DNA from: Chitinophagales bacterium
Lineage (GTDB): Bacteria; Bacteroidota; Bacteroidia; Chitinophagales; CAIODY01
Assembly (NCBI GenBank): GCA_947452995.1
Contig: CANGEV010000003.1
Location: 1 to 64,000, forward strand
Direction of reading: 5' to 3'
Length of the DNA stretch: 64,000 nt
In this document: positions 14,300-16,194 of the stretch, piece by piece
How the letters are laid out: each line of letters opens with the position of its first letter
How positions within the stretch are numbered: position 1 is the first letter of the stretch
The notes under the pieces: generated by a model
The model's database searches: none
What the model was told of the DNA's origin: nothing
The model's input: the letters and a program-made list of their open reading frames with translations, nothing else
Position numbers and translations under genes: made by a program

Positions 14300-14371
14300 G
14301 GCCTCGTAGTTCAATGGATAGAACGGAAGTTTCCTAAACTTTAAATACAGGTTCGATCCCTGTCGAGGCTA
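14300..14371 (+). tRNA. tRNA-Arg (anticodon CCT)
   Basis: The 72-nt tRNA has acceptor arms GGCCTCG and CGAGGCT (one G-T pair), discriminator A, a D arm GTTC...GAAC, anticodon loop TTCCTAA with anticodon CCT, and a T arm CAGGTTCGATCCCTG. It begins 5 nt after the metG stop and is probably processed from the metG transcript. CCA is not encoded. Confidence 0.93.
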
Positions 14372-14452
14372 CATTGCCTATGCCGCGGTATGTGAGACAT
14401 GTCGCGAAATTTTAAAATAAAGTGAGTTAATTAAAAACAATAATTATTAGAA

Positions 14453-15040
14453 TTATTTATTTGGAACAACTTTACCTTGTCGGTCGTAAGTTATGAATGA
14501 GTTCAAATCTTCATTGTAAGCATAAAAATACAACTGATCATCTGAAATTTCTATTGAATAATACTTGAAAGGGATTATCAATCCAACCTTTGAATCAACA
14601 ACACCGTAACCCTTAGCATCAGTCTTTAATATTATATATTTCCTGTCTAAGGTTATATTAGGAAGTCTAATTAAAAGTTTATTTTCTTGATCAGGAGTTG
14701 GTAATTCATCTAATTCAATAGACTCCTTAACCAACTTGTTTAAAGAAAAATTGTATAAGTTCCAACTAGAAGAATTTACCGCTGTATACTCCCCAATACC
14801 CTCATCGAAATAATAGCGGATCTCCTTAGCAAAGAAACAATTAACACTATCTAAAAAAACAACATCGGAGATACTATCTAACATAACAACGTTATGTGCA
14901 TTATCAACAACTTCATAAAATTCTCCATCATAGTAAATAGTAATTTTACTATCTAAAGACCGAACTGCTGATTTTGTTTTTATTTGAGCATTAGCAAAAA
15001 GAAAAGAAAAACAGCTAAATAAAACCAGTAAATATTTCAT
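14453..15040 (-). CDS. Secreted protein with a WG-repeat-like C-terminus, unknown function
   Basis: The 195-residue protein starts with a clear signal peptide (MKYLLVLFSCFSFLFANAQ). The C-terminal half contains KGYGVVDSKVGLIIPFKYYS, which fits the consensus of WG repeats (G-x-W/Y-G-x-x-D, then I-I-P-x-x-Y). The rest is not recognisable. Base composition is more AT-rich than metG, and it sits beside the RAYT element, so it may belong to a recently acquired patch. Confidence 0.6.
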   Translation of the reverse strand: MKYLLVLFSCFSFLFANAQIKTKSAVRSLDSKITIYYDGEFYEVVDNAHNVVMLDSISDVVFLDSVNCFFAKEIRYYFDEGIGEYTAVNSSSWNLYNFSLNKLVKESIELDELPTPDQENKLLIRLPNITLDRKYIILKTDAKGYGVVDSKVGLIIPFKYYSIEISDDQLYFYAYNEDLNSFITYDRQGKVVPNK

Positions 15041-15117
15041 TTTTAAAAAATTAAAAATTAAAAATAAAGGATCAAAATATTAATCGAATATAACTACTAA
15101 AACTAAATTTTAAAAAC

Positions 15118-15160
15118 AATTAATTATAATACATTCAAGATGGTTCGTGAGACACGAACC
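15118..15160 (+). repeat. 43-bp direct repeat, left copy, ending in a REP-like palindrome
   Basis: Matches 16152-16194 except for one A/G difference. Its right end starts the perfect palindrome TGGTTCGT (15141-15148), 5-nt loop GAGAC, ACGAACCA (15154-15161). Confidence 0.85.
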
Positions 15161-15317
15161 ATAACGTGAGACACGAACCATAACGTGAGACACAAACCAT
15201 AACGTGAGACACAAACCATAACGTGAGACACGAACCATAACGTGAGACACGAACCATAACGTGAGACACGAACCATAACGTGAGACACGAACCATAACGT
15301 GAGACACGAACCATAAC
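15147..15317. repeat. Nine tandem copies of a 19-bp unit
   Basis: The unit GTGAGACACGAACCATAAC repeats nine times without spacers, exactly 19 bp apart. Units 3 and 4 carry A instead of G in the GAACC core. The unit equals the right arm of the left palindrome plus an ATAAC linker, so the array looks like local amplification of half of a REP-like element. An open frame through it is a by-product of the repetition. Confidence 0.9.
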
Positions 15318-15367
15318 ATATTTCCTTTACAACAATCCTTTACTCTTGTAAAACAAAATACCATGCC

Positions 15368-15391
15368 ACGGTTCGTGTCCACACGAACCGT
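15368..15391. repeat. REP-like palindrome upstream of the transposase
   Basis: Perfect hairpin: ACGGTTCGTGT (15368-15378), 2-nt centre, ACACGAACCGT (15381-15391). It shares the GGTTCGTG core with the flanking palindromes. Confidence 0.8.
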
Positions 15392-15459
15392 AAAATCATA
15401 CTGCACAAAACAATATCTAGACCAATTGTCACGTTATATAGTTAATTAAAATTAATAAC

Positions 15460-16017
15460 GTGAATAGCAAGAAGTCAATAAGACGAAAATCATATACCGA
15501 AACAGGTAAACTTTACTTTTTCACAGCAACAATAAATCAGTGGGAGCGTTTATTTGAATTAGAGAGAAATAAAGAAATTGTAATCGAATGTTTGCAACAT
15601 CTATCAAACACGAATAAAATAAGGGTCTATGGTTTTGTAATAATGCCTACGCATCTGCATATAATATGGCAAATTCTAGGATCAAACAACAAAGAATCAC
15701 CACAAACAACATTTTTAAAATTCACAGCGCATGCATTTCTAAAAACTATTAAAGACAAAAAGAAACAATTGTTAAGAAATTATAGAGTCAGTGCAAATAA
15801 TAAACGTTATGAATTCTGGCAAAGAGATTCACTTGCTTTCGAATTAAAAATAAGAAAAACAGCATTAACAAAATTAAATTACATTCACAACAACCCTATT
15901 GCTAAACACTGGCGACTAGCAAGCTCACCTGAGGAATACAAATATTCATCTGCACAATTTTACAAGAACGGAGAAAACAATTTTTCGTTTCTGAAGCACA
16001 TCATGGAAGTTATTTAG
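15460..16017 (+). CDS. REP-associated tyrosine transposase (RAYT; Y1/IS200-like family)
   Basis: The 185-residue protein has the HUH motif in MPTHLHIIW (about residues 67-75), the N-terminal YFFTATINQW strand, and the catalytic Tyr in LNYIHNNP (about 150). Y1 enzymes of this group cut and join single-stranded DNA at hairpins. It lacks the TnpB partner and terminal structure of IS200/IS605 but is surrounded by palindromes, as RAYTs are. The ORF appears intact. AT-rich codon use sets it apart from neighbouring core genes. Confidence 0.9.
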   Translation: MNSKKSIRRKSYTETGKLYFFTATINQWERLFELERNKEIVIECLQHLSNTNKIRVYGFVIMPTHLHIIWQILGSNNKESPQTTFLKFTAHAFLKTIKDKKKQLLRNYRVSANNKRYEFWQRDSLAFELKIRKTALTKLNYIHNNPIAKHWRLASSPEEYKYSSAQFYKNGENNFSFLKHIMEVI

Positions 16018-16095
16018 ATTGAATTTTAACATGGTTCGTGAGTACCGAAATCCCGAATTTTCGGAACGGAACGAAACATAATGTGTTTCCATGCA

Positions 16096-16132
16096 ACGGT
16101 TCGTCCCGAACATTCGCCCCCCCTCGAACCGT
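16096..16132. repeat. REP-like imperfect palindrome downstream of the transposase
   Basis: Arms ACGGTTCG (16096-16103) and CGAACCGT (16125-16132) flank a 21-nt loop containing a C run. The core matches the palindrome at 15368-15391, consistent with paired REP elements around a RAYT. Confidence 0.65.
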
Positions 16133-16151
16133 GATAACGCCCTAAAAAAAT

Positions 16152-16194
16152 AATTAATTATAATGCATTCAAGATGGTTCGTGAGACACGAACC
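16152..16194 (+). repeat. 43-bp direct repeat, right copy, ending in a REP-like palindrome
   Basis: Copy of 15118-15160 with a single difference. It ends in GGTTCGT (16176-16182), loop GAGAC, ACGAACC (16188-16194). The tandem 19-bp array is absent on this side. Confidence 0.85.

Follow-up and report, generated by a model that had tools for sequence, protein, structure and literature searches.

In the classical REP/RAYT systems of Gammaproteobacteria, repetitive extragenic palindromes (REPs) are dispersed hairpins with a short head, GT(A/G)G, on their 5' side, and their cognate enzymes are REP-associated tyrosine transposases (RAYTs) such as E. coli TnpA-REP (PDB 4er8) (Nunvar 2010, PMC2817692). 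The RAYTs of Bacteroidetes have been placed in subclass 2.6, equivalent to Bertels group 5, and the associated structures are described as atypical, weaker and non-GTAG (Quentin et al. 2018, PMC6006769). The locus analyzed here lies in the first 64,000 nucleotides (the window) of contig CANGEV010000003.1 from a Chitinophagales bacterium (GCA_947452995.1) and comprises a RAYT gene with the hairpins around it. It is very probably a Bacteroidota-type REPtron, with a RAYT of subclass 2.6 / group 5, in which a single-copy, vertically inherited HuH/Y1 transposase gene sits amid its own REP hairpins and spreads REPINs (inverted hairpin pairs). This reading is based on the family and fold of the protein, the inverted hairpins, the way the hairpin sequence varies in step with RAYT lineage and with the dispersed copies, a one-sided GCC head, and the presence or absence of REPs between sister species.

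The locus shares with subclass 2.6 (PMC6006769) its occurrence in Bacteroidetes, the motifs [NT]H[LI]H, WQ and YIHNNP with an SS tail, hairpins that lack GT[AG]G, and copies elsewhere in the genome. Unlike in the published description, most hairpins here have perfect stems of 8-11 bp with a GCC head. In comparison to the classical systems, the one-sided short head and the dispersed REPs are alike, whereas GCC replaces GT(A/G)G and the protein has only about 18% identity to 4er8 in structural alignment. In its one-sidedness the GCC head corresponds to the GT(A/G)G of classical REPs (PMC2817692). A reading of the DNA made from the sequence alone (the sequence-only reading) had noted that REP/RAYT systems are mostly described from Gammaproteobacteria and had found a compact Bacteroidota version of interest; as a claim to novelty this is weak, given that Bacteroidetes RAYTs with non-GTAG structures were already classed in 2018 (PMC6006769); the useful addition is the GCC head and the cognate pairing. 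The head goes unmentioned in the passages of PMC6006769, PMC3733652 and PMC12306157 that were compared, the supplementary hairpin tables, where it may be visible, lying outside the comparison.

The palindromes of GGTTCGT/ACGAACC core that the sequence-only reading saw around the gene are indeed there, as five hairpins in the region 15112-16194. The gene and its hairpins are as follows:

15112..15162, plus strand: left direct repeat, an AT-rich linker plus a reverse-type REP hairpin (stem 15140-15162, loop AGA), from repeat and folding analysis
15365..15391, plus strand: upstream forward REP, a GCC head (15365-15367) plus a 10-bp perfect stem (hairpin 15368-15391) with loop TCCA, from folding and head statistics
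15460..16017, plus strand: RAYT / TnpA-REP gene, 185 amino acids, with HuH (H65, H67) and Y141 motifs, from profile, motif and fold matches
16031..16079, plus strand: downstream reverse-type REP, imperfect, its sister counterpart being a perfect 10-bp hairpin, from folding and sister comparison
16096..16132, plus strand: forward-type REP, imperfect, with an 8-bp stem and a long loop, from folding
16146..16194, plus strand: right direct repeat, linker plus a reverse-type REP hairpin (stem 16176-16194), from repeat and folding analysis

The open reading frame (ORF) of the RAYT begins with a GTG start codon. Its product narrowly matches the NCBIfam model REP_Tyr_transpos (NF047646; score 80.5 bits, cut-off 80), and a profile built from 41 relatives matches E. 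coli TnpA-REP with an E-value of 2.5e-6. An AlphaFold model (pLDDT 90.7) is structurally closest to 4er8 (E 7.5e-8), then to the TnpA proteins of ISDra2 and IS608. The initial identification as a Y1 transposase of the RAYT group is borne out by the NCBIfam match and by the profile and fold matches to 4er8. The protein combines the HuH motif and a single catalytic tyrosine in an IS200-like fold, and H65, H67 and Y141 are invariant, the catalytic residues being intact here. A Pfam search returned nothing above threshold, only a sub-threshold match to Y1_Tnp, and a PHROGs search gave no useful match. The sequences THLH, WQ, YIHNNP and SS correspond to the motifs NH[LIV]H, WQ, YIH[QN]NP and SS of subclass 2.6 / group 5, with the first residue of THLH being T in this genus and N in most other members. 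On these motifs and the phylum, the protein fits subclass 2.6 / group 5.

Around the gene, the forward REP at 15365-15391 and the reverse REP at 16031-16079 form an inverted pair flanking the ORF (the latter imperfect here and perfect in the sister), while the forward-type REP at 16096-16132 is paired in inverted orientation with the hairpin of the right direct repeat (16176-16194). The three perfect hairpins fold far beyond dinucleotide shuffles, with z-scores of -5.7, -5.0 and -4.0, and the two imperfect ones beat the shuffles modestly (z about -2). Across Bacteroidota, an upstream hairpin matches a downstream one in inverted orientation at 30 of 71 RAYT loci, compared to 0 of 213 shuffled flanks, and the hairpin sequence tracks the RAYT tree. 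Three genomes have a RAYT carrying the core TGCAGGTG, and in these its hairpins number 8, 9 and 14; one other genome has a single such hairpin and seven have none. For the core TTGTTGGTG, the five genomes that have it contain 51, 57, 2, 6 and 16 hairpins, while one other has three and nine have none. By both tests, the dispersed copies match the RAYT hairpin of their own genome. Exact TTGTTGGTG hairpins are most numerous in G103 (51) and G107 (57), the genomes of loci L094 and L098, which are the best found for population studies.

The hairpins also share a head. GCC stands at the 5' foot of 33 of 48 RAYT-flanking hairpins, against a background of 5.9%. In a sample of 43 hairpin copies from four genomes of relatives, about three of which copies adjoin the RAYT, GCC lies on the 5' side in 38 and on the 3' side in three. 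Loci that are related enter both counts as if they were independent, and the computed probability is indicative only. At the present locus, too, the upstream hairpin carries GCC (15365-15367) and not the 5' GT(A/G)G head of classical REPs.

A congener (G002; locus L066) has a RAYT ortholog with 95% amino acid identity at the same chromosomal place, after metG and the gene for tRNA-Arg. For the gene, the ratio of nonsynonymous to synonymous substitution rates (dN/dS) is 0.18, with a deficit of amino acid changes (P 4e-4), and constraint is weaker than on metG (0.18 vs 0.025). Given the ortholog at the same site, the dN/dS value and this deficit, the gene is inherited vertically and subject to purifying selection. 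A search of the genome found a single RAYT copy.

It is the hairpins, and not the gene, that disperse. Within this genome, the palindrome GGTTCGT..ACGAACC in its exact form is confined to the RAYT locus, bar one weak site; in the sister it occurs in 28 copies, 20 of them at 17 other loci. Confinement to the locus, indicated by the exact patterns, was overturned by a relaxed search, in which the inner core TTCGTG..CACGAA was found at 19 sites here; 16 of these lie outside the locus, and the control gave a single match. In many of these dispersed copies one stem pair has undergone a compensated change, giving CGTTTCGTG..CACGAAACG, and the dispersed copies are intergenic. The genome search proposed by the sequence-only reading gave a divided answer, with the exact form almost restricted to the locus and the looser core dispersed. 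Its broader proposal of a Bacteroidota REP/RAYT system with dispersing hairpins holds, with cognate hairpins both at the gene and at the 17 other sister loci; for this genome, dispersal is seen with the relaxed core alone.

The orthologous sites of sister REP loci were sought with 15 probes, of which 12 mapped in this genome and three were without a match. Nine of the 12 mapped sites lack such a hairpin here. At one (L176/L192), this genome cleanly lacks a 472-bp sister block containing four hairpins, and at another (L168/L189) a hairpin pair of the sister is missing. Both species have a diverged hairpin at three sites (C1:306440, C2:57850 and C20:383), and some dispersed copies may therefore be old. 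The epimerase gene, used as an anchor for an empty RAYT site, had no orthologous locus in a third congener or in the sister genus.

Two further observations concern intergenic DNA. In both species it contains another palindrome type (CCCGA..TCGGG) and ATTCATCATTCATC-like repeats (L166-L182 and L183-L194), and it turns over very fast between them; this palindrome type is not present in the 64,000-nucleotide window. In addition, a sequence of about 37 bp (CGAATGTTTATTA..TATCGT..AGCGGAT..TTTTTTA) stands on either side of one sister hairpin (L167, 760-870) and aligns to a single copy here, as though host sequence had been duplicated around the hairpin insertion.

The 43-bp near-identical direct repeats that the sequence-only reading took as the limits of a compact mobile element are present with a palindrome at their end, though slightly longer: 15112-15160 and 16146-16194 are 49 bp long with 96% identity, each ending in GGTTCGTGAGACACGAACC. 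They do enclose the gene and hairpins, as expected if gene and repeats formed an autonomous transposon. However, the sister cluster is built from modules of forward hairpin, AT-rich linker, reverse hairpin and a longer hairpin, repeated in units of about 150 bp on both sides of the gene, and the linker plus reverse hairpin, corresponding to the direct repeat here, is an internal module with four copies around the orthologous gene. Because of this recurrence, the direct repeat represents half of an inverted hairpin pair rather than an element limit, and its candidacy as a limit or target duplication was ruled out. The hairpin cluster has expanded differently in the two species at their common site, and the genome search found no copy of gene plus repeats elsewhere, making an autonomous transposon hardly credible. 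The locus resembles IS200/IS605 insertion sequences (IS608, ISDra2) in its HuH/Y1 fold and in having hairpins on both sides. It is unlike them in carrying YIHNNP instead of Y[IV]ENQ and in a gene fixed at one site, with no near-identical copies of the whole unit.

It is also very unlikely that the hairpins serve as ordinary elements for transcription termination or mRNA stability, with the RAYT adjacent to them by accident. Their dispersed copies are intergenic and one hairpin scores as terminator-like on the minus strand, yet terminator-like sites are no commoner than in shuffles, the one-sided GCC head is no terminator feature, and the hairpin core follows the RAYT tree and agrees with the dispersed copies genome by genome. 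These comparisons ran opposite to what this reading would expect, namely high copy numbers of a core in genomes lacking a RAYT of the clade in question. More serious is the possibility that the system in this genome is a decaying relic, with the RAYT kept and REPs no longer mobilized, which is plausible but falls somewhat short of an even chance. In its favor, the exact core stands at the RAYT locus only while the sister has many more copies, two of the five hairpins are imperfect, the left end of the cluster is decayed, and the RAYT is under weaker constraint than metG. On the other hand, purifying selection is still detectable, the catalytic residues are intact, and the 16 dispersed copies with the compensated stem could be a separately evolving active population.

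Several results weigh against the REPtron interpretation. A perfect matching hairpin pair is lacking at 41 of the 71 RAYT loci under the criteria used, the GCC head has been lost from many dispersed copies in this genus, and the reverse hairpin with the AGA loop has no GCC head in the genus. Clean empty-site junctions are available at one or two loci only, because intergenic DNA turns over fast. Furthermore, as the exact RAYT-adjacent core is not dispersed in this genome and the dispersed copies mostly have the changed stem (CGTTTCGTG), present REP activity here is doubtful.

If the locus is a REPtron, its mechanism can be modeled on TnpA-REP and the IS200/IS605 enzymes. The RAYT would bind the hairpin as single-stranded DNA, with the GCC 5' of the hairpin foot positioning cleavage by Tyr141, and would cut and rejoin strands through this residue. 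Inverted hairpin pairs (REPINs) would in this way spread to intergenic sites while the RAYT gene stays put, and local arrays may arise by slippage or recombination.

The neighborhood to the left of the gene includes two features that the sequence-only reading missed, the tandem array and the decayed hairpin:

14300..14372, plus strand: tRNA-Arg(CCT) gene, directly followed by the REP cluster in the sister and by the relic here, from ARAGORN and sister alignment
14382..14406, plus strand: decayed REP relic, a GCC head plus the degenerate hairpin GCCGCGGTATGTGAGACATGTCGCG, probably the left edge of the ancestral cluster, from its position as the first REP of the sister cluster
14453..15040, minus strand: ORF of 195 amino acids with no Pfam family, a neighbor outside the mechanism, from the ORF list, Pfam and sister alignment
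15146..15317, plus strand: 19-bp tandem array, 9.1 copies of CGTGAGACACGAACCATAA with 98% match, from repeat analysis

The array unit CGTGAGACACGAACCATAA equals the right half of the left hairpin (15140-15162) plus spacer. A stretch related to this half-hairpin array, with inserted TCCCGAA..TTCGGGA palindromes, is found in the sister at one of its dispersed loci (L168, about 840-910). Between the tRNA-Arg gene and the hairpin cluster, about 700 bp (window 14390-15111) carrying the 195-amino acid ORF are absent from the sister site. With this stretch in between, the relic is cut off from the remaining cluster, and the decayed hairpin on its left suggests that the stretch entered the hairpin cluster.

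Chances are about even that the Bacteroidota RAYT clade takes GCC as its guide instead of GT(A/G)G, each lineage having rewritten its hairpin specificity (GGTTCGTG, TGCAGGTG, TTGTTGGTG and others). Its REPs would then form a further super-family alongside those tagged GTAG and CGTC, accompanied by a cognate transposase of their own. To our knowledge, REP recognition by RAYTs is structurally understood for the GTAG head only. A large clade in which the head differs and the hairpins change alongside the enzyme would provide natural matched pairs for learning how guide and hairpin are read, and would extend beyond Proteobacteria the pattern of REPs dispersing while the gene of their enzyme stays fixed.
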